Both the position numbers and the translations under genes were made by a program. Source: Nitrospirota bacterium (GTDB taxonomy: Bacteria > Nitrospirota > Leptospirillia > Leptospirillales > Leptospirillaceae). Taken from it: DNA of 38,794 nt. The stretch's first letter is position 1, and each line of letters begins with the position of its first letter. The notes under the pieces were generated by a model. That model worked only from the letters and a program-made list of their open reading frames with translations. It ran no database searches and was not told where the DNA came from. The DNA lies in the NCBI GenBank assembly GCA_027366615.1, contig DAHXNG010000119.1, positions 1-38,794 of the forward strand, given 5' to 3'. This document shows positions 24,281 to 38,794 of the stretch, piece after piece.

Positions 24281-24844
24281 TCAGGAGGGGAAGATCTCGG
24301 AGAGGGAAATCGACAGCCCCGGAAGCAGAGGGGATTCGAGATGATCGCCCTGGCCGTATTCGAGGGGTGCCGGATAACGTCCGGCGGAAAGCCGGAAGAT
24401 CAAGACAACATCCATCGCGGGATCCACGATCCAGTATTCGGGAACGCCGAACCGCTCGTAGAGAGAATGTTTCAGACGGCGGTCGGAAGATTCCGTCGAC
24501 GGGGAGAGGATCTCGACAAGAAGGTCCGGAACGCCCTGGATGTTCTTCTCGCCAATAATGGCCGAACGCTCCTTCAAGACAAAGACCAGATCCGGCTCGA
24601 CTACCTGAAGCAGGTCTTTGGAAAAGACCACGTCGTAGGGAGCGTAGAAGACTTTCCCCAGGGGATTTTTCCTGAGAAAACTTTCGATCTTGAAAAACAG
24701 GTTTTTGGAAATTTCCTGATGTCGAGTATTGGGGGACGGGGTCATGCAGAGTTCTCCATCGATGATCTCGTAGCGAAAGGGACCCCCTTCCGGGAGCGAC
24801 ATGAACTCCTCGTAGCTCCATTCTTTGAGAATGGCTGTTTTCAT
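24281..24844 (-). CDS. Uma2-family (DUF820) putative restriction-type endonuclease
   Basis: Uma2/DUF820 protein with the PD-(D/E)XK nuclease fold. Motifs: RYEIIDGELCMTPSPNTRHQEIS, VEPDLVFV (metal-binding Asp), PDLLVEILSPST (catalytic Glu) and YERFGVPEYWIVDP. The 187-aa length is typical. ATG 24844 has AAGGAGG five bases upstream. A TATGAT hexamer (24878-24883, minus strand) could be its -10. Its biological role is not established; such genes are often present in many copies and may be mobile. It stands alone between two unrelated units. Confidence 0.85.
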   Translation of the reverse strand: MKTAILKEWSYEEFMSLPEGGPFRYEIIDGELCMTPSPNTRHQEISKNLFFKIESFLRKNPLGKVFYAPYDVVFSKDLLQVVEPDLVFVLKERSAIIGEKNIQGVPDLLVEILSPSTESSDRRLKHSLYERFGVPEYWIVDPAMDVVLIFRLSAGRYPAPLEYGQGDHLESPLLPGLSISLSEIFPS

Positions 24845-25048
24845 CGAAGCCTCCTTCCGCCATGCGGATACCTTGTCATCATACCTCGTTCTGGGTTTAC
24901 TCCACCACACTGAGATCGTCCCGCCTTAAGCTCAGCCCATTCCCCATATCGAAGGCATCTGATATACGGTGATGTGGACAACGCCCGGCGCCCCCTCCTG
25001 AGCCTCCGAAAGCCCGGCGATATTCTCCCGATTCCGGGCCATTCCCGG

Positions 25049-26059
25049 CTAGGGACGAAAGCTCTTGTAGAGAATAAAAAGAATAATGAGGAAAAAGGCC
25101 GGGACAAGAAGAAAAACGATCAGATCCATGTTCAGGCGGGTCCGGGCGACCTGATCGTCGATGGAGGCTTTGGGGGCCTCCAGAACCGAAAGCCAGGGCA
25201 TAGGAGCAATCCCCGTCATGGTGACAAGAAGCGCCGAACCGAAGGTGGTCTTGACGCCGTCGACCGTTGCAGTCACCGTCCCTGCCCTCCCCTTCGAAAA
25301 AACATCAAGAAGGGCTCCCCTCCCGAGGTTATGAAGATTGAGGCCGACCATCGCCGGGTCGGAAGAGGCAAGGACAAGACCGTCGGAAGAGAGCAGATAG
25401 GAGCGGCCGGGGGTCCCGCGGAATCTGGGAACCGGGAGATATTTGTCCATCTCCCCCGACAGGTTCCGGAGAGCCACGAGGACTCCCCCGCCTCCCGAAG
25501 CCCTCCTTCCGGTCCGAACAGCCGTCATCAAGATGACTTCGGGGTGTGTGCCGGGGATCACAATCGTCGTTGTGCGAAAGCTTCCCCCGCGAGCCACAAG
25601 CTCTGCGGCAAGATCGCGGGCCCTCTGGACGTAGGGATCGATATCGCGCCGGTCCAGAAGAGCCAGGACCCTCCCCTTTGAGTCGACCACGGAAAATCCT
25701 GCATAGGCCGCAAGATCTCCCTCCCGAATATACCGCCCCAGCACATTCCGTAAGGACTTTTCGGAGGGGGAAGTCGCCGACCATCGGATCTGGTGTGCGA
25801 CCGCAGAAAGTGCCCGCATGTTTCCCAGAAGGATCGCCTCCATGCGGGAAGAGAGATGGACGGAGGCCGGTTCGAGGGGGTTGCGGGTCATATAGTAGGT
25901 GACCGAGACCTCGCGATAGTAGAAAACAAAGAGGAAGAGTGCGGGAACGAGGACCACAAGAACAAAGACCGCCCCGACCGTCCGCCGCCAGCTTGATCGC
26001 CGAGGACCGGAGGCTCTTCCCGGAGCCTGCTCCGGAGAGGAAAAGGGATTGTTTTCCAT
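25049..26059 (-). CDS. Cache-domain membrane protein without a visible output domain
   Basis: Transmembrane helix 1 (about 28-47), a periplasmic region of about 255 residues with dCache-like character (SSRMEAILLGNMRALSAVA, FSVVDSKGRVLALLDRRD, YLLSSDGLVLASSDPAMVG, PWLSVLEAPKASIDDQV), and a second helix at the very C-terminus. This is the sensor half of a chemoreceptor or histidine kinase, but the protein ends 5 residues after helix 2, so no HAMP, kinase, GGDEF or methyl-accepting domain follows. ATG 26059 has GGAG seven bases upstream. Last gene of the seven-gene run, 23 bp after the reductase gene. It may signal through a partner or just bind ligand. Confidence 0.7.
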   Translation of the reverse strand: MENNPFSSPEQAPGRASGPRRSSWRRTVGAVFVLVVLVPALFLFVFYYREVSVTYYMTRNPLEPASVHLSSRMEAILLGNMRALSAVAHQIRWSATSPSEKSLRNVLGRYIREGDLAAYAGFSVVDSKGRVLALLDRRDIDPYVQRARDLAAELVARGGSFRTTTIVIPGTHPEVILMTAVRTGRRASGGGGVLVALRNLSGEMDKYLPVPRFRGTPGRSYLLSSDGLVLASSDPAMVGLNLHNLGRGALLDVFSKGRAGTVTATVDGVKTTFGSALLVTMTGIAPMPWLSVLEAPKASIDDQVARTRLNMDLIVFLLVPAFFLIILFILYKSFRP

Positions 26060-26082
26060 GTCAGGACTCCTCTTCGGGGGAT

Positions 26083-26817
26083 CTACCATTGCTCCTTGCG
26101 GATTGATTCGTCCGGGAACCCGGCGGTCTTGAGCCATGAGTAAGTTGATGTCACCATCTCCGGATGTCCGCAAATATAGACAACCTGCCCCTGGTAGGAC
26201 GGATAGAGACGGGGGAGAATCTCGGGAACCCGTCCCGAATGACCGGACCAGCCCGGAGAGGGACGGGAGTGGGCGACGCGAAGGGTAAATCCGGGAACGG
26301 CCTTCTCGTACTCTTTCATCTCATCGGCGTAGATGAAGTCCTCCCGGTCGCGAAATCCGTAGAGGAGTTCGATCGGAGGAGGAGTCTTCCCGGAAAGAAG
26401 CGTCCGGATCATTGAGCGCAGGGGGGCAATTCCGCTCCCTGCCGCAAGAAAGAGATGGGGGCGCGGATCGAGGGAATCGAGAACGAAGGAGTTCCCGTAA
26501 GGGCCTTCCACCAGGGCGGGATCCCCGACATGGGCTTCGTGGATGCGGTTGGAAAAATATCCCCCCTCCCCTTTCCGGGTGATGGTGAAGGCAATCCTTC
26601 GGTCAAGAAGCTCGGGGGGAGAGGAGGCGATGGAGTAGGCCCGGCGGACGGGACGGCCCTTGTCATTTAAGAAGTCCGGAAGCGAGAGCATGGCAAACTG
26701 GCCCGACCTGAAAGAAAAATCCGTCCCGGGCGGAAACTCCAGAACAAAGGTCGAGACCCGGGGTGTTTCCCGGATGATATCCGCGACAGTGGCCGCGACG
26801 ACAGGGCGCTTTGCCAT
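26083..26817 (-). CDS. Ferredoxin-NAD(P)+ reductase-like flavoprotein
   Basis: Cytoplasmic FNR-superfamily reductase. FAD-binding motif RRAYSIASSP (RxYS type), the phosphate-binding GxxS-like region EGPYGNSFVL, the NAD(P) motif LAAGSGIAPLRSMI, and the C-terminal YICGHPEMV segment. There is no fused ferredoxin or globin domain; length is about 244 aa. ATG 26817 with AGGA nine bases upstream is preferred to TTG 26826. It follows the ABC permease by 47 bp. The electron acceptor is not evident from neighbours, an unusual companion for an exporter operon. Confidence 0.85.
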   Translation of the reverse strand: MAKRPVVAATVADIIRETPRVSTFVLEFPPGTDFSFRSGQFAMLSLPDFLNDKGRPVRRAYSIASSPPELLDRRIAFTITRKGEGGYFSNRIHEAHVGDPALVEGPYGNSFVLDSLDPRPHLFLAAGSGIAPLRSMIRTLLSGKTPPPIELLYGFRDREDFIYADEMKEYEKAVPGFTLRVAHSRPSPGWSGHSGRVPEILPRLYPSYQGQVVYICGHPEMVTSTYSWLKTAGFPDESIRKEQW

Positions 26818-26864
26818 AAAATGCAATCCTTTCTCATGAGAATGGTCGAAGAAAACTCCGGCGG

Positions 26865-27695
26865 TCAGGATCCGAGCTTCAGGTGAAAGCCCCTTCTGCG
26901 AGCGCGCCGGATCACGCCGGCATAGAGAAAGACTGCTCCGGCCATATAGACGCCGTCAAGAAGATAAGCCATAAAAAGGTCCCGAAGGGGCATGGTGCCC
27001 ACCGTCAAAAGAGACCTCATCCCCTCGAAGACGTAGGAGGCCGGAACGAACCGGGAGAGAGCCGCCGCAAACGGAGGAAGGACGGCGACGGGATTGAAGA
27101 CCGCGGAAAATGGCTGGAAGAGAAAGATGACACCCCAGGCCAGGACCTCCGCCTCCTGCCCGAATCGAAGAATGACGGCCGTCGTCATGATGCCCAGGGC
27201 CCACCCCATGGCAAGCAGGGCCCCGATAAAAAAAAGAAGGTCGATCCCGAGCGAAAAGATCTTGAAGGAAAACAGAAAGTAGGCCAGGGTCGCGGCGACC
27301 GTCGAGGAGAGGAGGACCTTGCCGAAGCTCGAGACAATGGCCGCGAAAACGATATGGTACGGAGTGACCGGCGCGACAAGAAGGTGGATCAGGTTTCTTG
27401 ACCAGATCTCTTCGAGAAACATGACCGAGATCCCCTGCTGGGCCCTGTAGAGCATGTCCCAGAGAAGGAGGGCCCCGAGAAGGGAGACGACGGCCGAGGG
27501 AAGAAAGGAGGGGATGCGCTTGAGATAGAGCGTCAAAAACCCCCAGACGAGAAGGTCGAGGAGCGGCCAGTAGAAGATCTCCATCCACCGCGGAAGCGAG
27601 CGGCGATAGAGGACCGCCTGCCGGTAGAGGATCCCGGCCATGGGACGCCAGGCGAAGAGGGAGACCGGCTCCGGTCCGTCAGGCAACGGCCACAT
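26865..27695 (-). CDS. ABC-2 type transporter permease
   Basis: Integral membrane permease with about six hydrophobic helices, ABC-2 family (WMEIFYWPLLDLLVWGFLTLYL, LLWDMLYRAQQGISVMFLEEIWSRN, LLVAPVTPYHIVFAAI, VIFLFQPFSAVFNPVAVLPPF). The SRNLIHLLVAPVTPYHI element is characteristic of NodJ/export-type permeases. ATG 27695 overlaps the end of the ATPase gene by 17 bp, with AAGGA just upstream. Together with the ATPase it should form an exporter for a lipid, glycan or small molecule; the substrate is unknown. Confidence 0.85.
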   Translation of the reverse strand: MWPLPDGPEPVSLFAWRPMAGILYRQAVLYRRSLPRWMEIFYWPLLDLLVWGFLTLYLKRIPSFLPSAVVSLLGALLLWDMLYRAQQGISVMFLEEIWSRNLIHLLVAPVTPYHIVFAAIVSSFGKVLLSSTVAATLAYFLFSFKIFSLGIDLLFFIGALLAMGWALGIMTTAVILRFGQEAEVLAWGVIFLFQPFSAVFNPVAVLPPFAAALSRFVPASYVFEGMRSLLTVGTMPLRDLFMAYLLDGVYMAGAVFLYAGVIRRARRRGFHLKLGS

Positions 27696-28437
27696 CCTTC
27701 CTTTCGGCCAGAAGAAGAAAAAGGGCCTCGAGATCCTGTGTCTTGTAGCGTTCCATGAGAGAGGCGGCCGTTCCCTGGGCGGCGATCTCCCCTTCGCGCA
27801 TGAGGACGATACGGTCGGAAAAGCGCTCCACCTCCCGCATGTTGTGGGAGGTATAGAGGAGCGCCATCCCCCGCTCCCGTACCATCCCGGCAAGGAGGTG
27901 GCGAAGCTGGCCTGAGACCTCGGGATCGAGGGTCGCCGTGGGTTCGTCGAGAAAGAGGATCTCCGGATCGTTGACAAGCGCTTTGGCGATCCCCATGCGC
28001 GCCACCTGTCCGGTCGAAAGAGCGCCGACCTTCCGGTCGGCAAACGACTCGAGGCCCAGAAGGGCCAGAAGGCGGGAGACTCTCTCCCGGGGCCTTTTCA
28101 TGTTGTAGATGAGGGCGTAGGTCAAAAGGTTCTCCCTGACGGTCAAGGCGTAGGGAAGGCTCAGGTCGGTGGAGGCATAGTTGATCCGGTGGGCGATCCG
28201 ACGCCTTTCAGCGACGACGTCCCGGCCAAAGATCCGGATACTCCCCCCATCGGGAATGAGAAGCCCCAGCATCATCTGAACGAGGGTCGACTTTCCCGCG
28301 CCGTTGGGCCCCACCATACTCACGACCTCCCCGGCCCGAAGCCGGAGATCGACCTCCTTGACCGCAAAGGGGCCTCCCGGGAGATAGCGCTTGGACACCT
28401 TCTCCGAAACGAGCACCTCCCCGCCGGACTCTCCCAT
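27679..28437 (-). CDS. ABC-2 type exporter ATPase
   Basis: ATP-binding subunit. Walker A GPNGAGKS, Q-loop region replaced by INYASTDLSLPYALTVREN (no Gln at the usual place), signature LSTGQVARMGIAKAL, Walker B ILFLDEP, D-loop TLDPE, switch His YTSHN. Apart from the Q-loop the active site is normal. ATG 28437 shares its A with the upstream TGA (TGATG), so translation is coupled. The C-terminal about 40 residues (RYKTQDLEALFLLLAERK) resemble the DLEDVFL tail of ABC-2 ATPases. Confidence 0.88.
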   Translation of the reverse strand: MGESGGEVLVSEKVSKRYLPGGPFAVKEVDLRLRAGEVVSMVGPNGAGKSTLVQMMLGLLIPDGGSIRIFGRDVVAERRRIAHRINYASTDLSLPYALTVRENLLTYALIYNMKRPRERVSRLLALLGLESFADRKVGALSTGQVARMGIAKALVNDPEILFLDEPTATLDPEVSGQLRHLLAGMVRERGMALLYTSHNMREVERFSDRIVLMREGEIAAQGTAASLMERYKTQDLEALFLLLAERKDVAVA

Positions 28438-29048
28438 CAGGAATGCGTCCGGGGAGTGGCGATGTTTTTGAAATGGATCAGAAAGCGGTCCCCCTTGATG
28501 CCGCGGGTTCCGACGAGCCCCAGATAAAGATCGAAGACCGGAGCGGTCGGCATCCTTGAAAAATGGATGGTGAAGCTTCCGGGGAGCCCCTTTTTGAAAA
28601 GCGTCGCCGTCGACAGGGAGGCCTCCCCCTTTCCGGAGTTCCTCCGGGAGTCGACCCACCGGGGCGTTCCCGCCACGGCCAGGGAGAGACCTTCACTGTC
28701 GGGCCCGTCCGTCCTGGCAGTCAAGGCCATCGACACGTCGAAGCCGGTCGGAGTCTTTGTCACCCCCCCGACTTGCAGATCAAAGTCCTTTGAGGCGAAG
28801 CTGTCGACCGCCGGTCCCTTGCCCGAGGGAAAAAAACTCGTGGGGGGAACAGGAAGGGGCACATGCCGGATCGCCTGCCCCGCCGAGTCGAAATCGTGAT
28901 GATTGGGGAGGGAGAGGTAAAAGAAAATCGTGTAAACGACCCCGGCCGCCATGACAAGGATCGATCCTCCTCCAAGAATGATGAAGCTTTTTGGAAGGCG
29001 AAACCTGTTGTCCGGCCCGCTCTTTTTCTCTGTCGAATTCTGGTCCAT
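28437..29048 (-). CDS. Single-pass membrane protein of unknown function in the exporter operon
   Basis: Not recognised. A short polar N-terminus, one transmembrane helix (about 24-46, SFIILGGGSILVMAAGVVYTIFFYL), then about 155 periplasmic residues of beta-rich character (DFDLQVGGVTKTPTGFDVSMALTART, GSFTIHFSRMPTAPVFDLYLGL). It lacks the coiled-coil and lipoyl features of a HlyD-type adaptor. ATG 29048 has GGAG nine bases upstream; ATG 29072 and 29054 are alternatives. Position between the outer-membrane genes and the ABC genes makes it a candidate periplasmic link of the exporter, which is inference only. Confidence 0.65.
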   Translation of the reverse strand: MDQNSTEKKSGPDNRFRLPKSFIILGGGSILVMAAGVVYTIFFYLSLPNHHDFDSAGQAIRHVPLPVPPTSFFPSGKGPAVDSFASKDFDLQVGGVTKTPTGFDVSMALTARTDGPDSEGLSLAVAGTPRWVDSRRNSGKGEASLSTATLFKKGLPGSFTIHFSRMPTAPVFDLYLGLVGTRGIKGDRFLIHFKNIATPRTHS

Positions 29049-29088
29049 ATGCATTGTCTCCAAAAGAGTCATGCCCCTTGGGGCTCCG

Positions 29089-29859
29089 TCAGAACCTCAC
29101 CATGATACCAGCAACGAGAGGCAAAATGGTCATGACGTTGTTTGAAAGATCGAAGAGGGTCGGGTCGGCCTCGAAAAAGACGCCCAGGGGGTAGCCCGGG
29201 AGGGAGAGGGAGAGTCCGGCACCTGCATCGATGAGCCCCCCGTAAGGATGGCCGGAGATCCCCGGGATGTTCGAAACCGCCCAGTCGACACCCCCCACAT
29301 CAATGCGCACATAGGGAACAAGGATCCGGTGGATCCCCAGGGAGTCGGGAACCATCCCGAAGATGTCGTAGGCCAGCCCCGCACGAACGATAAAGCCCGT
29401 AACGGAGGCCGATCCGGGAACGGGAGGAATAGAGGACGGCGAGGAGGAGGAAAAAAATCCCCCAGAGGCCGGAGGCGCCAGATTGGCTCCCGGCGTCATC
29501 TGAAAGTAGGAAAAGTCGCCCAGTACACGAAAGTGCGAAGAAAGGCTCTCCGGCGTTCCCCCGGAAGGAAGGTCCCCCAGCCGGTAGGAGAGTTCCCCGC
29601 CGACCCCCATCGCCTGGTCGATGTACCGGGAAAGCCCTCCGCCCGGGAGAAGATAGAAGGAATAGGTCGGAGAAAGAGACCATCGGTCGGTCGCCGGTCC
29701 GGAGTGTGTTCCCGCGACACGGGGGAGCCCCGGCGATGCGGGGAGAGGCATCATGGCCCCCGAATCCGCCCGGGAACGGGGGGCAAGAAGAAGATCGAAA
29801 AGAATAAAGGCCACGAACCCGACCATCGTCCATCTTCGCACTCTTGAGGAGAAGCTCAT
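29089..29859 (-). CDS. Predicted outer-membrane beta-barrel protein
   Basis: Signal peptide (about 1-31, ending SRADSG) followed by alternating amphipathic segments, Gly/Pro-rich turns and a terminal Phe (ITPL-type end MTILPLVAGIMVRF), the usual beta-signal for BAM insertion. Segments such as YSFYLLPGGGLSRYIDQ, GGELSYRLGDL and FIVRAGLAYDIFGMV look like barrel strands. The ATG overlaps the TolC-like stop (ATGA). Its C-terminus resembles that of the second barrel protein at 38252 (ITVIPVMAGTTFYF). Function unknown; co-translated with an outer-membrane factor. Confidence 0.7.
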   Translation of the reverse strand: MSFSSRVRRWTMVGFVAFILFDLLLAPRSRADSGAMMPLPASPGLPRVAGTHSGPATDRWSLSPTYSFYLLPGGGLSRYIDQAMGVGGELSYRLGDLPSGGTPESLSSHFRVLGDFSYFQMTPGANLAPPASGGFFSSSSPSSIPPVPGSASVTGFIVRAGLAYDIFGMVPDSLGIHRILVPYVRIDVGGVDWAVSNIPGISGHPYGGLIDAGAGLSLSLPGYPLGVFFEADPTLFDLSNNVMTILPLVAGIMVRF

Positions 29860-31265
29860 GGGAGATCCTTGGGAATGCGGTGTGTTCCGGGGTCGAGGTT
29901 GATTCCCTGGTCGTGTCGAAGTTGGGCGATGGCGATCGAAAGATCGGCCCGGTCCCTGACCAGGTTCGACCGCGCACTGGCCAGGTCCCGCTCCGACTGG
30001 GTGACCGCGACCGAGGTTCCGGTCCCGACACGGAACTGGTTTTCCGCCAGATAGAGGTTCTGACGGGCCTGGGCGACGATCTCCCGGTCGGCCGCTACCT
30101 TTTGCCGGTATGTTTTGATATTGAGGATGTCGGAGCGAACCTCGACGATCGCCTGCTGCCTTTTATCCTCCCTTTGAAAAATCATCTGGCGCATCTGGGC
30201 CTTGGCCATCTGTGTCTGGTGCACGAACTGGAAACCGTTGAAGATGGGGATGGTCAGAGTCGTCCCGACCGACCAGTTGTAGACGAGGGGAAAGAATTCG
30301 CTGTCGAGGCTGTAGGCGCCGACTGTCTGGACTGTCGGGAAGAACTGCGCCTGGTTGAACTTGACCACCTGCTTCTGGGCAAGAGCCTGCTCTGTCAGCG
30401 TCTTGAGGTCCGGCCTGTGGGAAAGTGCCAGCGAAACATCTCTGTCAGGGTCCAGATGCGGAGAGGAGAGGTGCGACGGCGCAACCACCCGATAGGAGGC
30501 GTGGGCCACCACGCCCATCGCCCGGTCGAGGCCGAGACGGTCGATCCTCTCCAGATTCTTGTCCGTCACCCGGGAGAGGCGAGCGTTCGAGAGGTTGACC
30601 CGGGCATTAAGCACATCGTAGGAGGTCGCCACTCCATCCTTGTAGCGGACCCGGGCGACCTCCTCCTGAATCCGGTAGTCGGCAATCGTCAATTCGTCCA
30701 CCGCCACGAGATTCTGGTCCTTCAGGACGAGGAAGAAGGCCTTCTCGACATTCAGGACAGTGTCCTGGAGTGTTTGCCGGTGCTGACTTCTGGAGGCGTT
30801 GTAGAGATGTCGGTTCTGGCTGACCTGCGAGCGCCGGCGGCCAAAGGAAAAGAGCGTCTCGGAGAGTGTCAGCTGGGCCTGGTAGAAGTCGAAGGAGACG
30901 GGGGACTCGGGAATGGTGAAGGGGAACCCCGGCTGGGGACCGAAGTTTCCCGTCTCGCGCGTATAGGTCGTCGCGCCGGAGAGGGTCGGATAATACTGGC
31001 TCTGGGCCACGCCTATTCCGGCCTTCGAGGCGAGAACTCCCTGCTGGGCAGCCCCGATCCCGGGATAGGACCTGAGGGCGATCCCGAGAGCTGCCCGAAG
31101 AGTCAGTCGAAACGGCCTGTCGAAGGAGGCGGAAGCTCCGGAGGTGCTCTCCGGAAGATCTTCCGCATCGGCCAATGCCCCGGGAAAGTCCATGGGTAAA
31201 GCATAAGACGAAAGCGATAAGGTCACTATAAAAAGAATCAGAAAGGAGCGGAAATAAAAATTCAA
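29856..31265 (-). CDS. TolC-family outer-membrane factor (first copy)
   Basis: Outer-membrane channel of tripartite exporters. Start at TTG 31265: AGAGG lies five bases upstream and it yields an ideal signal peptide (MNFYFRSFLILFIVTLSLSSYA). The two-repeat OEP layout is visible: LRAALGIALRSYPGIGAAQ, SLTLSETLFSFGRR-type strand region, DVLNARVNLSNARL helix, LALSHRPDLKTLTEQALAQKQ starting repeat 2, and TSVAVTQSERDLASARSNLV. The length of about 469 aa is normal. First gene of the seven-gene run, divergent from the LysR gene. It is a paralogue of the TolC-like protein at 36733 (shared DVLNARVNLSNA). Confidence 0.9.
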   Translation of the reverse strand: MNFYFRSFLILFIVTLSLSSYALPMDFPGALADAEDLPESTSGASASFDRPFRLTLRAALGIALRSYPGIGAAQQGVLASKAGIGVAQSQYYPTLSGATTYTRETGNFGPQPGFPFTIPESPVSFDFYQAQLTLSETLFSFGRRRSQVSQNRHLYNASRSQHRQTLQDTVLNVEKAFFLVLKDQNLVAVDELTIADYRIQEEVARVRYKDGVATSYDVLNARVNLSNARLSRVTDKNLERIDRLGLDRAMGVVAHASYRVVAPSHLSSPHLDPDRDVSLALSHRPDLKTLTEQALAQKQVVKFNQAQFFPTVQTVGAYSLDSEFFPLVYNWSVGTTLTIPIFNGFQFVHQTQMAKAQMRQMIFQREDKRQQAIVEVRSDILNIKTYRQKVAADREIVAQARQNLYLAENQFRVGTGTSVAVTQSERDLASARSNLVRDRADLSIAIAQLRHDQGINLDPGTHRIPKDLP

Positions 31266-31321
31266 CAGAACCTCTCTGGCATCCGTTTTTTGCTCGACCC
31301 CACTATGACAAAAAAAAATTA

Positions 31322-31351
31322 TTGAAGAATGAACCGGAAGAAATGTATAAT
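31322..31351 (+). promoter_or_regulatory. Predicted promoter of the LysR gene
   Basis: A perfect TATAAT (31346-31351) with TTGAAG (31322-31327, 4/6), 18-bp spacer; start near 31358, leader about 80 nt. The region also holds a direct repeat TGAAGAA (31323-31329 and 31351-31357) and inverted AATTATT/AATAATT arms (31317-31323, 31362-31368), possible regulator-binding sites between the divergent genes. Confidence 0.5.
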
Positions 31352-31437
31352 GAAGAAGTTTAATAATTCGGTTTTCAGCCCGAAAAAGATCCCCGCTACC
31401 GAATCTTCGGGAGCCTAACACTCGGAAGGACTAAAGA

Positions 31438-32376
31438 ATGACCCTGTCGCAGATTCAAACATTTCTCGTCGTCGGCGAATCCCTGAACTTTACAAGGGCG
31501 GCCCGCACCCTTTCCGTCACCCAGCCGGCTGTCAGCACGCAGATCCAGCTTCTGGAAAGGGAGCTGGAGGTCAGCCTCTTCAACCGGATCGGACGACGGG
31601 TCTATCTGAGCCAGGCAGGATTTCTCTTCCGCGAACTCGCTCTTGAAATCATAGCACGGGTCAATCGTTCGGAGTCACTTCTCCACTCCTTCACCCCGCT
31701 GACGAAGACGGAGTCTCTCCGCATCGGAACCGGGTTCGGCGCCCCCCAGAACAGGGAAAGATTTCTCCAGCACTATCTTCACGGAACATTCCAGAAGAGA
31801 ATCCCTGTGAAGGCCTTTCACGGAGCAGAGAAGGATCTTGTCTCTGAACTCGAAAGCGGTCAGGCCGACATCGTCATGTTCTATCACATGAATGACACCC
31901 CCGCCCCCTTCGCCAATCCCGCCGAGATCCGCAACCTGCCCGTCGACTCGGCGAAGACCCTCGTTCTGGGATCACCGGGACTCTCAAAGGACCGCTGGCA
32001 GAGAAATATCCGGATTCTCGAAAACTTTCCCGTCCTGCTCCCTCCCCCGGACAGTCTGATCCGGCGGCCGATTGAGGAGAAGCTTCACAAGCTCGGACTC
32101 AAGACGAAGCTCGGGATCGATACGGGAGAGGTCGACGTTCTCAGAAAGGCACTGCTCTCCGGATTCGGCGTCGGGATCTTTCCCAACAGCATCTTCAGGA
32201 AGGAGATCGAGAGCGGGGAGCTTATCGGGCTCTCCATCGACGAGGTCTCCTTCGACTGCACCCTGTCGGCCTACACCAGAAACGAGCCGGACATCCACCA
32301 CCTGACGACGAAGCAGGTCGCCCTCCAGATCCTGGCGTCAGGCTGGTCCGAATCCCCCCTTAAGGAGAAGAAGTAG
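31438..32376 (+). CDS. LysR-family transcriptional regulator
   Basis: N-terminal winged helix-turn-helix (about 1-60, LNFTRAARTLSVTQPAVSTQIQLLERELEVSLFNR) and a C-terminal substrate-binding regulatory domain (about 90-300). The length of 312 aa is typical. GGAAGGA lies seven bases before the ATG. LysR regulators usually control the divergent neighbour and their own gene. Here that is the TolC-led operon, with the RND operon convergent on the other side only 7 bp away. The inducer is unknown. Confidence 0.93.
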   Translation: MTLSQIQTFLVVGESLNFTRAARTLSVTQPAVSTQIQLLERELEVSLFNRIGRRVYLSQAGFLFRELALEIIARVNRSESLLHSFTPLTKTESLRIGTGFGAPQNRERFLQHYLHGTFQKRIPVKAFHGAEKDLVSELESGQADIVMFYHMNDTPAPFANPAEIRNLPVDSAKTLVLGSPGLSKDRWQRNIRILENFPVLLPPPDSLIRRPIEEKLHKLGLKTKLGIDTGEVDVLRKALLSGFGVGIFPNSIFRKEIESGELIGLSIDEVSFDCTLSAYTRNEPDIHHLTTKQVALQILASGWSESPLKEKK

Positions 32377-32383
32377 CTTTCAA

Positions 32384-35300
32384 TCAGTCGTTTTTCGCAG
32401 GAGCGACCTTCTCCCATTCCGCCGGAGTGGGGAAGGTCGTGCCCTTGCCTCGTCGTTTTTCGCGCCACTCGTGGAGAGAGACGTAGACGAGGGGAATGAG
32501 AACGAGCGTAAAGATCGTGGAAAAGCTCAACCCTCCGATGACTGCCCGGGCCAGGGGCATGCTGTTCGAACTTCCCACCTCAAGTCCGATGGCCATAGGC
32601 AATAGCCCCGTGATCGTCGCAATGCTCGTCATGAGAACCGGCCGAAGACGTGTCCGGCCTCCCAGCACTACCGCCTCTTTCAGACTTCTCCCCTTCTCCC
32701 GGACCAGCTTGTTGGTGTAATCGACCAGAAGAACCCCGTTGCTGACCGCAATCCCCCCCGTCACGATCACCCCCATGAAGGCGATCGAGGAAAAGTTCGT
32801 CCCCGTCAAAAAGAACATCCAGATGACCCCGACGAGCCCCAACGGAACCGTGAACATGATGATGAAAGGGTCGATGAAGGAGCGGAACTGGATCGAAAGG
32901 ACCATGTAGACGAGAAAGAGCGAGGAGAGGAGGGCCAGGCCGAGCGAAAGAAAGGCTCCCTTCTGTTCGGCGATCTGACCGGCCATTGTGACGCTGAAAC
33001 CGTCGGGAAGAGGGGTCTTGGCGAGCATCGCGGAAAGATCCCGGGCGATATCTCCGAGGGAGCGGTTCACGGGATTGGCGGTGATGGTGATGAGCCTCGT
33101 CATGTACTTCCGGTCGACCTCGTTGGGCGAGGTTCCCTTCACGACGGTCGCGATATTGCGAAGAAGAACCGGCTCCCCGGAGGGGGTCATGAGAAAGACG
33201 TTCTGAAGATCTTCGAGGGAGTGGCGGAAGGGGCGGTCGAACTGGACGACGATATTGTATTCGTTTCCCGTGGCGGGATCGGTGTAGATCGAGGGATTGT
33301 TCTCGTTGCCGACGAAGCTCCACAGGACGGTCGAGGCGATATCGGAGACGGAGAGACCCAGTATCCTGGCCTTCACCCGGTCGATCCTCACGTTGTATGT
33401 GGGGTAGTGGAAGTCGTTGGGAAGCACCTGGATGTCACCGACTCCGGGAATCTTCCCCATCTCCCGGGCCAGCCGGTAGGAGAGATCCTCTCCCGTCTTC
33501 AGATCATACCCGTAGACCTCGAGGTTGATGATCCCCTGATAGCCGAAGTTGATGATCCGTTCTATGAGCCCTCCCGGCATGAAGTAGATCCTCACACCCG
33601 GGAAGAGACCCGCAACCGCCTTCCGGACCCGCTCCATCGCCTGGTCGGAGCTTTCGCTGCGCTTCTCCGGGTCGACGAGGTTCACCTGGACGAACCCGGT
33701 ATCGGGGCCCGTGTTGGAGGTGAAGACCGAGGCGGCGCCGTTTGTTCCCCGGCCGGCCGTACTGCGGAGTCCAATGTTCGAGGCGACGAGCCGGATTTCC
33801 CCGGGGGGGAGGGTTTTCTTGACGAGATCCTCGATCTTTCGGGCGGTCTTGGTCGTAATTTCAATGCGCGTGCCGGGGGGCTCCTGAATATTGACTGTGA
33901 ACTGGCTCTCGTCCGGAGACGGAAAGAACTCGGTCCCGATTCCCTTTAAAAGAGGAAGAGTGAGAAAGAAGATTACGGTCATCGCCACATAGACTTTTTT
34001 TCTGTACTCCAAAGAATAGGTCAGGATCTCCTGGTAGCCGACCTCCACCCGGGTAAAAAAACGACGAAGAGGGCTCTCCTTCCCTCCTCCGGAAGGGGCC
34101 TCCCCTCCCTTCAGGAATCGATAGCACAAAAGAGGCGTCACCGTCCGGGAGACGAAAAAGGAGGCAAAGAGGGCAAAGGTAATGGTCAGCGCCATGGGGG
34201 TAAAGAGAAGACGACCGATTCCTTCCATGAAGACGATCGGGAAGAAGACGATGACCGTCGTGATCGTAGAGGCCAGAATCGGCATGGCGACCTCGCGGGC
34301 CGCCGTCAGAAGGGCAACGGGACGACTCTCTTCGCGAATCGAAAAATGGCGAAAGATATTTTCGAGCTCGACGATCGAATCGTCCACGAGCCGGCCGATC
34401 CCCAGTGCCAGTCCGCCAAAGGTAAAAATGTTGAGAGTCTCGTGGGTGAAATAGAGAAAGATGAGGGCCACCAGGGCCGATAGCGGGATCGCCACTCCGA
34501 TGATGAAGGTGGCGCGAAGGCTTCCGAGAAAGAGCAAAATGACAATGACGGCGAGGATCGCCCCCTGGACCGACTCGTGGTAGAGCCCCCGTATCGACTG
34601 GCGGATATAGGTGGACTGGTCGAAAAAGGTGTCGAGATGAACTCCCTTGGGGAGCCCCCGGAGGTGGGGAATGGCCGCTCTGACCGCATCGACGACCGCC
34701 ACCGTGTTCGAGCCGGGCTGCTTGTTCACCGACAGGTAGACGGCGTTCTCTCCGTTGACCCGCACCAGGTTTGTCTGGGTTTCGGCCGAATCCGCGACCC
34801 GGGCGAAGTCCTTGACGAAGACAGGAACCGTCCGTCCGTCCGGGGTCGCCTGCGTCGTCACCGGAACATTTCTCAGGACGTCGACCAGGTTCCGGCTAAT
34901 CTGGGTGTTGACAAAAAGATTGTAGTCCTTGCTCCCGATCTTGATGTCACCGGAGGGCAGGATCAGGTTGGACAGATTGACGGCGTTCACAACCTGGATC
35001 ATCGAAAGGTTCCGGGCCAGAAGCTCGCGGGGATCGACATTGATGTTGATCTGGCGAACCTTTCCGCCGTTCACCGTCGCTTGGGAGACATTGGGGAGCT
35101 GTTCGAGCTGCGGTTCGATCGTGTTGTAGGCCAGGTCATAGAGCTGGATCTGGTTCATTTCCGGATCGGAGACCGTCAGCGAGACCACCGGGATATTGGC
35201 AATGTCGAACTTGAGGATAAAGGGCTGCTGAATGCCCGGGGGAAGCTGGTTCTGGATCTGGGAGATCTTCTGGACGGCCTGGACGAGACCGCCGTTCAGA

Positions 35301-35599
35301 TCCTTGCCCCAGTTGAACCAGACCTGGATCGACGAGACGCCGATGCGCGACTGGGACTGAATATGGCTGACGTCGTCGATGGTTGCCAGCGTCTTTTCGA
35401 GGGGGTAGGTGACGCTTCTCTCGACGTCGACCGGAGAGGCGCCGGGATAGAGGGTTCCGACGATCAGGACGGGAACGGCAAGATTCGGGAAGAGGTCGAT
35501 CGGAAGCTTGCTGACGGACTGGGACCCCACCAGGACGAGAAGGAGCGAGGCCATAAAGACCGCGATGGGGTTTTTGAGTGCGATACGGGTCAGCCACAT
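32384..35599 (-). CDS. RND efflux pump inner-membrane permease (AcrB/HAE1-like)
   Basis: Proton-driven efflux permease, 1071 aa, the normal size. The N-terminal RIALKNPIAVFMASLLLVLVG helix, porter domains, the proton-relay pair Asp406/Asp407 in TM4 (GRLVDDSIVELENIF), and a second set of helices with GGIAVSNGVLLVDYTN and TRLRPVLMTSIATITGLLPMA. The position of AcrB Lys940 is Ser in this subgroup-like motif. HAE1-type sequence (no CzcA metal motif seen) suggests organic substrates, but that is inference. Follows the adaptor gene by 27 bp. Confidence 0.93.
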   Translation of the reverse strand: MWLTRIALKNPIAVFMASLLLVLVGSQSVSKLPIDLFPNLAVPVLIVGTLYPGASPVDVERSVTYPLEKTLATIDDVSHIQSQSRIGVSSIQVWFNWGKDLNGGLVQAVQKISQIQNQLPPGIQQPFILKFDIANIPVVSLTVSDPEMNQIQLYDLAYNTIEPQLEQLPNVSQATVNGGKVRQININVDPRELLARNLSMIQVVNAVNLSNLILPSGDIKIGSKDYNLFVNTQISRNLVDVLRNVPVTTQATPDGRTVPVFVKDFARVADSAETQTNLVRVNGENAVYLSVNKQPGSNTVAVVDAVRAAIPHLRGLPKGVHLDTFFDQSTYIRQSIRGLYHESVQGAILAVIVILLFLGSLRATFIIGVAIPLSALVALIFLYFTHETLNIFTFGGLALGIGRLVDDSIVELENIFRHFSIREESRPVALLTAAREVAMPILASTITTVIVFFPIVFMEGIGRLLFTPMALTITFALFASFFVSRTVTPLLCYRFLKGGEAPSGGGKESPLRRFFTRVEVGYQEILTYSLEYRKKVYVAMTVIFFLTLPLLKGIGTEFFPSPDESQFTVNIQEPPGTRIEITTKTARKIEDLVKKTLPPGEIRLVASNIGLRSTAGRGTNGAASVFTSNTGPDTGFVQVNLVDPEKRSESSDQAMERVRKAVAGLFPGVRIYFMPGGLIERIINFGYQGIINLEVYGYDLKTGEDLSYRLAREMGKIPGVGDIQVLPNDFHYPTYNVRIDRVKARILGLSVSDIASTVLWSFVGNENNPSIYTDPATGNEYNIVVQFDRPFRHSLEDLQNVFLMTPSGEPVLLRNIATVVKGTSPNEVDRKYMTRLITITANPVNRSLGDIARDLSAMLAKTPLPDGFSVTMAGQIAEQKGAFLSLGLALLSSLFLVYMVLSIQFRSFIDPFIIMFTVPLGLVGVIWMFFLTGTNFSSIAFMGVIVTGGIAVSNGVLLVDYTNKLVREKGRSLKEAVVLGGRTRLRPVLMTSIATITGLLPMAIGLEVGSSNSMPLARAVIGGLSFSTIFTLVLIPLVYVSLHEWREKRRGKGTTFPTPAEWEKVAPAKND

Positions 35600-35626
35600 G
35601 GCAGAGGGACGCCTTCCGTTCAGACG

Positions 35627-36736
35627 TTAGAAGTTTGGCACTCCAGTATCGATCACCTTGGCCTGGACATGGTCACCGTCCTCGAGATGCTCCTGGCCGG
35701 CCACGACGACGGTCTGCCCCGGCAAGAGACCGGAGAGAACCTCCGCATTTCTCTGGCCGAGAATTCCGAGAGCGATTTCGCGCTTCTTGACGACGGAGCC
35801 CGGCTCGAGGGTGTAGACCCAGCTCTTGCCCTGCCGCGACAGGATCGCGATTTTCGGAACCTGAAGAACGCCCTTGTGGGTCGTCAGGTTCAGGACCGCC
35901 TTTGCGAACATTCCGGGCTTGAGACGGCCGTCGGGGTTGTCCATGTCGATCTCGACCGCCAGGGTGCGCGTCGAGGTGTCCAGGGCCGGGTTCATGCGGG
36001 TGATCTTCCCGGGAAAGGACTCTCCGGGATAGGCGTCGGCATGGACCATGACGTGGAGGCCCAGGTGGAGATAGCGGATGTCGCGCTCGGGAACGTTCAC
36101 GACAATCTTGACGATATGGGTGTCGACCACGGTAAAGAGGGGATTTGAGCCGGAGGAGAGGGCCGCCGTCGTCGCCGGGATGGTCGCTCCCGGATCGACC
36201 ATGCGGTTGAAAATGTATCCGTCGAAGGGGGCGACAATGTCGGCATAGGAGAGCATCTTCCGGGAGTAGTCCACCGTGGCCTGCGACTGACGGCACTGGG
36301 AGTTCGCCAGATCGTAGGCATCCTTGGAAACGAGGCTCTTCGCCAGAAGCGCCTTGTAGCGCGTCGCATTAAGACACACATAGTCCCGGTTCGCCTGGGC
36401 CTGGTGGTACTGGGCCTTCAGGGTGGTGTCGTTGATGTGGGCCAGGAGCTGGCCCTTCTTGACGCGGTATCCTCTGCGGACGGTAATCCTGTCGAGGTAG
36501 CCGCTCACCTGGGAATAGATCGCCGCCTGGTTGATCGGCTGAATATCGGCCGTGAGGGTGATGACAAGGGAGATGTCATGGAGCTTCACGGGCATGACGC
36601 CCACCATCTCGGGAACCGCCACCTTGCCGCGAGTGCGGGAGGGTGCCCCCGAATGGTGCAAAAATCTCACGGCGATAACGACCAGGATGAAAGCGGCCAC
36701 AAGCAACAGGGTCAGACGGGTTCCACGACGATTCAC
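35627..36736 (-). CDS. RND periplasmic adaptor (membrane fusion protein)
   Basis: Links the RND permease to the outer-membrane factor. An N-terminal membrane anchor (about 8-26, LTLLLVAAFILVVIAV), a lipoyl-like half-motif (YSQVSGYLDRITVRRGYRVKKGQLLAHI), a short helical hairpin (about 110-165), the second lipoyl half (IVAPFDGYIFNRMVDPGATI), and beta-barrel and membrane-proximal domains (VMVHADAYPGESFPGKITRMNPALD). The length of 369 aa is normal. ATG overlaps the upstream TolC-like stop (ATGA). Confidence 0.93.
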   Translation of the reverse strand: MNRRGTRLTLLLVAAFILVVIAVRFLHHSGAPSRTRGKVAVPEMVGVMPVKLHDISLVITLTADIQPINQAAIYSQVSGYLDRITVRRGYRVKKGQLLAHINDTTLKAQYHQAQANRDYVCLNATRYKALLAKSLVSKDAYDLANSQCRQSQATVDYSRKMLSYADIVAPFDGYIFNRMVDPGATIPATTAALSSGSNPLFTVVDTHIVKIVVNVPERDIRYLHLGLHVMVHADAYPGESFPGKITRMNPALDTSTRTLAVEIDMDNPDGRLKPGMFAKAVLNLTTHKGVLQVPKIAILSRQGKSWVYTLEPGSVVKKREIALGILGQRNAEVLSGLLPGQTVVVAGQEHLEDGDHVQAKVIDTGVPNF

Positions 36737-38226
36737 TTTTTTCTCTCCTCCGTATTCTTCCGTCTCTTGGCCTGGGACAGGGGGTCGAGGCCAGCATCCT
36801 TGATAAGCGCCGCCCGGGCGATCTTGTACCCGTAAACCGCCGAGACGACCTGGGCCCGGGCGGCCGCCAGATCCGCCTCGGCCTGGGTCAGCGCCACGGC
36901 GCTTCCCACCCCGACCTGGTACTGTCCCGCCGCAAGACGCAGGCTCTCCTTGGCCTGGGAGAGAAGATCCCGGGTCGTGCTGATCCTTTGCGAGGCCGTC
37001 CTGAGATTGTCGACATCCTGGTGGATCGCCGAGACGATCCCGACCCGGACATTCTCCTCGGCGTCGCGAGCGGCCAGAGTCGTCTTCTGCGCCTGCCGCT
37101 CCTGATGGACCGTCAAAAATCCCGAGAAGATCGGGATCGAGATCGTCGCTCCGGCCGACCAGTTGTATGTCAAGGGAAAGAACATGCTGGCATAGGTGTA
37201 GCCGCCGGTCATCCCGATCGACGGCATGTAGGTGCTTTCATAGTAACGTTCGTTCTGGAGGTCGGAGAGCTTCTGGTTCATGGCCGAACTGAGGTCCGGA
37301 CGGTTTTCGAGAGCCATCCTGACGAGCTTCGTGCTGTCGGCGTCGAAAGGGACCACGGAGAGGTCGGTATCGACCGTGTACTGCTCGTTCGTTTCTATTC
37401 CCATGGCGTTGTTCAGGGCGACCCGGGCCGTCGAGACATTGTTTTCCGCGGTGATGAGGTTGAGCTTGGCGTTGGAGAGGTTGACGCGGGCATTGAGCAC
37501 GTCGAACTTGGCCGCCATGCCGATCTGGAACTCCGCCTGGGCGACCTGGAGCTGGGCGGTATAGTCGTCGACGGTTTTCTTTGCCGCCCCGACGAGGAGA
37601 AGGTTCTGGGCAAAGGTGTCGTAGGCCGTCTCCACCCCGTAGAGGAGGTTGACGAGAGTCCATCTGGCCTGGTCGAGGGAGGCTTTATAGGAGTATTTGG
37701 CCTGCCGGAGCTGAGTGACGCGCTGACCGAAGGTATAGATCGTCTGGGTCAGGCTGAAGGAGGCCTGGTAGAAGTTGTAGGCCTGATTCGAGTTGGCCGG
37801 AAGAACGGCGTAAAAAGAGGCGGGGATCCCCGGGGAGATGACGAAGTTTCCTGTCTCGAAGTTGTAGCCGGCCCCGGCGGAAAGATGGGGCAGATAGTTG
37901 GAAAATGCCTCCCCGATGACCTCCTTGTTGGCCTGGGCCGTATGGAGGGCCTGCTTGTACTGGGGATGCCGGTCGATCGTGATCTCCATCGCCTGAAGAA
38001 GTGTCAGATGGTGAGGAATCGCAAGCGCGCGCTCTTTTGAGGGGGCGAGGAGGGTGGTGTTCGAATCGACGGTTTCCGCCCTTGCCGGGCTCCCGGAAAA
38101 AAGGCAGGTCCAGAGAAAAAGAAGGGAGAAAAGGGAAAGGCCACGCAAAAAGGGAGAAGTGGCATCATAGATCCTCCCCTTCCTCCCCGTGTCGTTCCCT
38201 ATTTTTGAAAGATTCCTCGCCATCAT
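36733..38226 (-). CDS. TolC-family outer-membrane factor (second copy, RND operon)
   Basis: Outer-membrane channel of the RND system. A long signal peptide (about 1-51, with hydrophobic LSLFSLLFLWTCLFSG, ending PARA), the OEP repeat 1 (LLQAMEITIDRHPQYKQALHTAQANKEVIGEAFSNYLPHLSAG), the DVLNARVNLSNAKLN helix, and repeat 2 (MALENRPDLSSAMNQKLSDLQNERYY...AVALTQAEADLAAARAQVV). The length of 497 aa is normal. ATG 38226 or ATG 38223; no strong Shine-Dalgarno. Downstream of the beta-barrel gene and translationally coupled to the adaptor. Confidence 0.92.
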   Translation of the reverse strand: MMARNLSKIGNDTGRKGRIYDATSPFLRGLSLFSLLFLWTCLFSGSPARAETVDSNTTLLAPSKERALAIPHHLTLLQAMEITIDRHPQYKQALHTAQANKEVIGEAFSNYLPHLSAGAGYNFETGNFVISPGIPASFYAVLPANSNQAYNFYQASFSLTQTIYTFGQRVTQLRQAKYSYKASLDQARWTLVNLLYGVETAYDTFAQNLLLVGAAKKTVDDYTAQLQVAQAEFQIGMAAKFDVLNARVNLSNAKLNLITAENNVSTARVALNNAMGIETNEQYTVDTDLSVVPFDADSTKLVRMALENRPDLSSAMNQKLSDLQNERYYESTYMPSIGMTGGYTYASMFFPLTYNWSAGATISIPIFSGFLTVHQERQAQKTTLAARDAEENVRVGIVSAIHQDVDNLRTASQRISTTRDLLSQAKESLRLAAGQYQVGVGSAVALTQAEADLAAARAQVVSAVYGYKIARAALIKDAGLDPLSQAKRRKNTEERKK

Positions 38227-38251
38227 CCCTGCCGCCTGTCAAAAATACCAG

Positions 38252-38794
38252 TCAAAAATAAAAGGTCGTTCCCGCCATGACCGGTATAACGGTGATGATC
38301 TGTGGTCCAAGGAAAAGCCACTGGGACCTGATCTCTCCGAAAAATGCCATGGGAACGGCCCGGGGACGAGCCTCGATCCCGAAACCCAGATCTTCCATAA
38401 GGCCATTGGTGTGAAGGCTCGCCGGACCGTCGTTGCTCACGCTGGTAAAGACCCCTCCCGTATCTCCCCGGAGGTAGGGGAACCACGGCTGGTACCTGAT
38501 CATGGAGGGGAACCAGCGCGTCAGCTCGACCTGAAGGCCCGCATAGACTGGCACATAGCTGATCGAGGGGCCGGAAGACTTTTTCACGTTGAGCGGGGGA
38601 GCTAAATGGGGGGAGCCCATATTGAAGCCGGCGCCGCCCAGGATACGGATTCCCCGGAAGAGGCCGTAGGAGATCTCCCCGACTCCGCCGATGCTGTCCT
38701 GATAGAGCTTGACCGGAGCCGGAGTCTGGAGCGCATCGTAGGAAAACATCAAGGAAAGACCGAATCGTCCCGTCTGGGAGGCATAGGGTTCCGA
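38252..38794 (-). CDS. Predicted outer-membrane beta-barrel protein, 5' part beyond the window
   Basis: C-terminal part of a beta-barrel protein. The frame is open to the right edge, and upstream of the internal ATG the residues GRFGLSLMFSYDALQ already look like a barrel strand, so the true start is outside. Strands such as GGVGEISYGLFRGIRILGGAGF and PVYAGLQVELTRWFPSMIRYQPW alternate with turns. It ends in Phe (ITVIPVMAGTTFYF), the BAM-recognised end. It is the counterpart of the barrel protein at 29089 and precedes the TolC-like gene by 25 bp. Confidence 0.7.
   Translation of the reverse strand, partial: SEPYASQTGRFGLSLMFSYDALQTPAPVKLYQDSIGGVGEISYGLFRGIRILGGAGFNMGSPHLAPPLNVKKSSGPSISYVPVYAGLQVELTRWFPSMIRYQPWFPYLRGDTGGVFTSVSNDGPASLHTNGLMEDLGFGIEARPRAVPMAFFGEIRSQWLFLGPQIITVIPVMAGTTFYF

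Follow-up and report, generated by a model that had tools for sequence, protein, structure and literature searches.

A seven-gene operon combining outer-membrane parts, an ABC-2 pump, a flavin reductase and a dCache-like protein is genuine and conserved across one family of Nitrospirota bacteria, most likely the Leptospirillum group, and represents a new variant of ABC-2 export, not a new kind of system. It is located in the window, i.e. the whole 38,794-nucleotide stretch of DNA analyzed here, which belongs to an incomplete host genome assembly (1.38 Mb, ~70% complete). The operon is apparently without an existing name, and no paper on it was found in the literature. We see about an even chance that its products work as one machine, namely a widespread ABC-2 exporter that was elaborated in this lineage and is controlled by LysR. 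If so, this lineage would have extended an old two-gene ABC-2 pump into a trans-envelope exporter by means of parts unused elsewhere, which would raise the question of whether an HlyD-type adaptor is required for every exit of the TolC type. To our knowledge, the envelope systems of acid-mine bacteria have been little studied, and the operon provides a candidate export system in these organisms.

Gene content and organization of the operon

All seven open reading frames are intact and lie on the minus strand (Table 1), in the order TolC-like protein, barrel, single-pass protein, ATPase, ABC-2 permease, FNR reductase and Cache protein. This reading of frames and junctions agrees with the earlier note, which had described seven genes on one strand connected by ATGA, TGATG and 17-bp overlaps or by short gaps. 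The TolC-like frame is open to 31421, with a likely TTG start at 31265, and is linked to the barrel gene through an ATGA overlap (29856-29859). The barrel stop (29089) is followed by the start of the single-pass protein at 29048 (40 bp, the likelier one) or 29072 (16 bp), and the latter gene is joined to the ATPase gene by TGATG at 28437. The permease gene overlaps the ATPase stop (27679) by 17 bp if started at 27695 or by 8 bp if started at 27686, which is the start used in relatives. A 47 bp gap separates the permease stop (26865) from the FNR start (26817), while the FNR stop (26083) overlaps the Cache start (26089) by 7 bp, with AAGGAG found just 5' of this start. Relative to the nearest relative, third codon positions hold most of the substitutions in each gene, which indicates selection at the protein level on all seven.

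The interval originally delineated (25049-31265) does contain these seven genes, and the earlier inventory was right on this point; however, it overlooked the neighboring RND set as well as the divergent LysR gene (31438-32376), which belongs with the operon. Relatives from each of the five genera have this LysR gene at the same place. The intergenic region includes a promoter-like TTGAAG-18-TATAAT site facing LysR (31322-31351), conserved in the genus alignment. A search for a LysR box common to the genera found none, which weighs against the model proposed below.

Table 1. Features of the operon and its surroundings (window coordinates)
Feature	Position	Strand	Evidence
Cache protein: dCache-like periplasmic domain flanked by a transmembrane segment on each side	25049..26089	-	weak dCache_1, hydrophobic segments
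Soluble FAD/NAD(P)H reductase, FNR superfamily	26083..26817	-	PF00175 NAD_binding_1 2.6e-20, PF00970 FAD_binding_6 5e-6
ABC-2 permease	26865..27686 (TTG start; or ATG 27695)	-	PF01061 ABC2_membrane 1.8e-8
ABC ATPase	27679..28437	-	PF00005 ABC_tran 2e-33
Single-pass inner-membrane protein, predicted periplasmic Ig-like sandwich	28437..29048	-	hydrophobic segment, AlphaFold
Signal peptide + predicted 8-stranded outer-membrane beta-barrel	29089..29859	-	AlphaFold model, Foldseek
TolC/OprM-like outer-membrane factor	29856..31265	-	PF02321 OEP 4.9e-58
Divergent promoter region	31266..31437	.	promoter-like site facing LysR at 31322-31351
LysR-type regulator, divergent	31438..32376	+	HTH_1 5.2e-19, LysR_substrate 3.7e-14
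Neighboring RND set (conserved neighbor, not claimed as operon part)	32384..38752	-	PF00873 6e-230
RND pump	32384-35599	-	PF00873 6e-230
RND-set adaptor	35627-36736	-	lipoyl match at 36434-36520
RND-set outer-membrane factor	36733-38226	-	
Second barrel, near contig end and cut	38252-38752	-	homologous to first barrel

Conservation within one family

Of 20 relatives from the same family, spanning five genera, 18 share the gene order, with the single-pass protein retained down to ~33% identity. The expectation that the neighborhood would be conserved beyond this strain was thus borne out, an arrangement specific to the strain was rejected, and the operon is a family trait. Neighborhoods were read in 17 relatives, and each displayed the same order, either complete or interrupted by a contig end; in another genome counted among the 18 (G007), the operon pieces are spread over short contigs. 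Both exceptions can be explained by incomplete assembly: G011 has a truncated barrel match, and its permease, FNR and Cache genes open a different contig, as would be expected if the assembly had a gap at the gene for the single-pass protein, and the absence of every operon part from G019 fits a region missing from the assembly of this 80% complete genome. Outside of the family, the single-pass protein was not detected: in the sample of relatives, 19 of 61 genomes carry it, all belonging to the family of the window, and a phylum-wide sample of 296 genomes added no others to these 19. Similarly, the barrel was identified in 20 of 118 genomes, all from this family. Among the sampled genomes, the single-pass, barrel and Cache proteins thus seem confined to this family.

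In all genera, the TolC-like, barrel and ABC genes are linked by overlaps or short gaps. The single-pass and ATPase genes are tightly coupled in every relative read, through a 1-bp overlap, an 8-bp overlap or an 18-bp gap, which favors a subunit role for the single-pass protein. The gap before the FNR gene ranges from 39 to 139 bp across relatives, so that FNR and Cache could form a separate unit. Just past the Cache gene, the window encodes a putative endonuclease of the Uma2 family (24281-24910); the corresponding gap in the closest relative is too short for such a gene, which suggests a recent insertion in the window, or a loss in this relative.

An old and widespread ABC-2 exporter

The ATPase displays intact motifs, including Walker A (GPNGAGKST), the LSTGQ signature, Walker B (LFLDEP) and the H-loop, and together with an ABC2_membrane permease in the same operon it forms an ABC-2 exporter. 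Both genes are complete and under purifying selection. The drrA-type and TIGR03864 models match the ATPase below their cut-offs, and its assignment to the PQQ-alcohol-dehydrogenase-linked ABC ATPases (TIGR03864) was rejected, with 160 bits against a curated cut-off of 302.

The permease profile matches 103 of 198 phylum genomes, mostly with one strong copy apiece, and the family permeases are monophyletic (support 100/100). Across 20 neighborhoods outside of the family, the ATPase gene is found beside the permease gene in nearly all, and the other five genes in none; likewise, the ABC pair is present alone on alphaproteobacterial plasmids. The ATPase and permease are thus an old two-gene ABC-2 exporter widespread in the phylum, and describing the whole locus as an undescribed system, as was initially suggested, was too strong. 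Two-gene exporters of the COG1131/COG0842 type, such as that of Azospirillum lipoferum and the orthologous pairs in Nitrospirota, share the same ATPase/permease order, and the permease is 40% identical to the Azospirillum protein over 99% of its length and 36-53% identical to other Nitrospirota permeases. Unlike these bare pairs, however, the pair is here embedded between the TolC-barrel-single-pass genes and the FNR-Cache genes.

The surroundings of the bare pairs vary. In Azospirillum lipoferum, the pair adjoins RegA/RegB redox regulators and tenA (L120:7084-10822). In several Nitrospiraceae-like genomes, it comes after genes for DegP, TatC, MoCF, a NubPL-type ATPase, MoeA, MobB and a NapC-like cytochrome (L117:1907-9916, also L107, L110, L113, L114 and L116), which suggests a connection with the maturation of molybdoenzymes or cytochromes in these genomes. 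In another Nitrospirota family (L104:8524-14399), the genes after the pair encode a predicted outer-membrane protein, a CarboxypepD_reg-like protein and a dCache_3-HAMP-cyclase protein, an arrangement that loosely recalls the barrel and Cache protein described here.

Outer-membrane components and the neighboring RND set

The TolC-like protein is a TolC-family outer-membrane factor (PF02321), as found in tripartite ABC exporters. Its closest solved relative is OprM (2e-15), and the RND-partnered OprM and OprJ are nearest. The barrel did not display any match in Pfam or NCBIfam. This 256-aa protein has a signal peptide, ends in F, and was modeled by AlphaFold with eight long strands, for which Foldseek retrieved OmpX, Ail, OmpA, NspA and a Dot/Icm-associated porin with E-values down to 1e-6. 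Based on this predicted structure, it would thus be a small barrel of the OmpX/OmpA type, sharing with OmpX (Foldseek E ~5e-6), Ail and OmpA the eight predicted strands, signal peptide and terminal F. Unlike these proteins, it has no sequence family match, and in this bacterial family barrels of its kind accompany the outer-membrane factor of the ABC set as well as that of the RND set.

Matches to OEP, ABC_tran and ABC2_membrane support the outer-membrane channel and ABC-2 pump proposed in the earlier note, and its statement that the set includes no recognizable adaptor also held, with no HlyD/MacA-type gene detected among the seven using Pfam and NCBIfam. HlyBD-TolC, MacAB-TolC and YbhGFSR likewise associate an ABC pump with a TolC-family outer-membrane factor in one operon, but the operon described here differs from all three by the absence of an HlyD/MacA adaptor gene and by the addition of the barrel, the Ig-domain protein, the reductase and the Cache protein.

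An adaptor belonging to the RND set is encoded ~4.4 kb upstream within the window. More broadly, the lipoyl-domain family has 5-7 matches in five of six family genomes and two in one 64% complete genome. The same family also matches in organisms without such pumps, indicating that not every match is an adaptor; one of them is the RND adaptor of the window. Of the other adaptors in the genus, the one read (L133) adjoins not an ABC pump but a large membrane protein that resembles, by eye, an AaeB/FUSC-type transporter. The adjacent RND set contains one paralogue of the barrel and one of the outer-membrane factor (29089-29859 and 38252-38752 for the barrels; L122:12147-13052), and from these sequences the barrel-plus-channel module seems to have been duplicated. 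In other genera, a gene for a TetR-type regulator separates the second barrel from the outer-membrane factor of the RND set (L123:11945-12604), and none was seen in the window's genus.

The single-pass protein

Consistent with the description in the earlier note of a beta-rich, single-pass protein of no known family, the product of 28437-29048 contains one hydrophobic segment, no cysteines, and did not yield any sequence match in Pfam, NCBIfam or the PDB. In the AlphaFold model, an N-terminal tail leads into a single transmembrane helix, followed by a linker modeled with low confidence and a sandwich of ~115 residues (residues ~91-205, pLDDT near 90), and two motifs are invariant, VPLPVPP in the linker and PRWVD. 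Foldseek returned weak matches only, to ApaG and adaptin-ear sandwiches (best E 1e-3, TM-score ~0.3 by query length), so that the protein can be described as an Ig-like sandwich at most.

The possibility that it matches a known adaptor or an unrelated family had been raised, and no such match was found. It had also been placed where an adaptor would be, and this role as a stand-in is not upheld: the predicted sandwich is small and includes neither hairpin nor lipoyl domain, and adaptor candidates are encoded elsewhere in the genome. Identification as an HlyD-type adaptor was rejected, given that lipoyl, hairpin and adaptor barrel domains are lacking by sequence and by fold. The simplest reading is that the protein is an accessory subunit of the ABC exporter. 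Searches of plasmids recovered no homologue, membership in a defense system was rejected, with no match in PADLOC, and hhalign comparisons of this protein and the barrel to a lipoprotein and an outer-membrane protein beside an ABC pair in another Nitrospirota family (L102) gave nothing.

The reductase and the Cache protein

The reductase matches profiles of the NqrF, MmoC and BenC reductases, with which it shares FAD- and NAD-binding domains carrying the usual motifs, and its RAYS and GSGIAPLR motifs are invariant. Unlike these enzymes, it has no [2Fe-2S] domain among its profile matches, and a partner oxygenase is absent from the operon. For the Cache protein (346 aa, hydrophobic segments at 38-56 and 323-341), dCache_1 was matched in six of nine members, weakly in each case (0.11 for the window protein, i.e. 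12 bits against a cut-off of 45, and 2e-5 for the best relative). For the "Cache sensor" proposed earlier, these weak matches hint at a dCache-like periplasmic domain, and a sensor role is not supported: the protein ends ~5 residues past the second membrane segment, with no cytoplasmic kinase, cyclase or MCP output domain.

Working model and alternative explanations

Gene content, order and conservation, along with family-level folds and the phylum-wide spread of the ABC pair, led us to propose a model for the complex, its direction, its regulation and its substrate. ATP hydrolysis by the ATPase would drive the permease to remove a substrate from the cytoplasm or inner membrane; this substrate is probably a small molecule that is toxic or redox-active. 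The Ig-domain protein would act as an accessory subunit at the periplasmic face of the permease, and the TolC-like factor and small barrel would supply the outer-membrane part, with the channel probably using an adaptor encoded elsewhere, e.g. that of the adjacent RND set; alternatively, the outer-membrane parts may work separately. As a guess, the cytoplasmic target of FNR may be the substrate or redox damage, and the Cache protein may bind a periplasmic ligand and tune the pump.

A possible, if somewhat doubtful, alternative is that two independent modules share a promoter, the TolC-like factor and barrel serving the RND pump and other systems, and the single-pass protein, ATPase and permease forming an exporter or flippase that is confined to the inner membrane and has no contact with TolC. 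The lack of an adaptor within the operon, the OprM-like character of the channel, the RND set next door with its paralogous barrel and outer-membrane factor, and the occurrence of bare ABC pairs in other members of the phylum and in Azospirillum are all consistent with such a division, yet this RND set already owns an outer-membrane factor and a barrel, and the junctions between the TolC-like, barrel and ABC genes stay tight in all genera. We consider it quite unlikely that the single-pass protein is instead a new kind of periplasmic adaptor linking the ABC-2 permease to the TolC-like channel. Its position in the operon, its single pass, beta-rich periplasmic domain and invariant proline-rich linker, and its occurrence only where the TolC-like gene goes with the ABC pair would suit this role, but it lacks a coiled-coil hairpin, lipoyl or adaptor beta-barrel domain, and a ~115-residue domain is unlikely to span the gap filled by HlyD-type adaptors. 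We give similarly little credence to the more far-reaching proposal that the pump delivers to a TolC-type channel without any HlyD-type adaptor, and that the Ig-domain protein, with the small barrel, founds a new class of ABC-2 subunits.

The conserved order might also be due only to a low rate of rearrangement within a small clade, with neighbors that are otherwise unrelated. Synteny in the family indeed extends to LysR, the RND set, the second barrel and, as identified by eye from their sequences, purQ-purL-purF, so that conserved order by itself is no proof of a functional unit. Stronger evidence for an operon appears to come from the overlapping or near-touching junctions, which persist at 33-40% protein identity; these, and the break in conserved order between genera directly after Cache, make slow rearrangement improbable. 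A published L. ferriphilum transcriptome includes a TolC, of an accession not mappable to this locus, that is up 7.4-fold in salt-adapted cells (PMC9053815).
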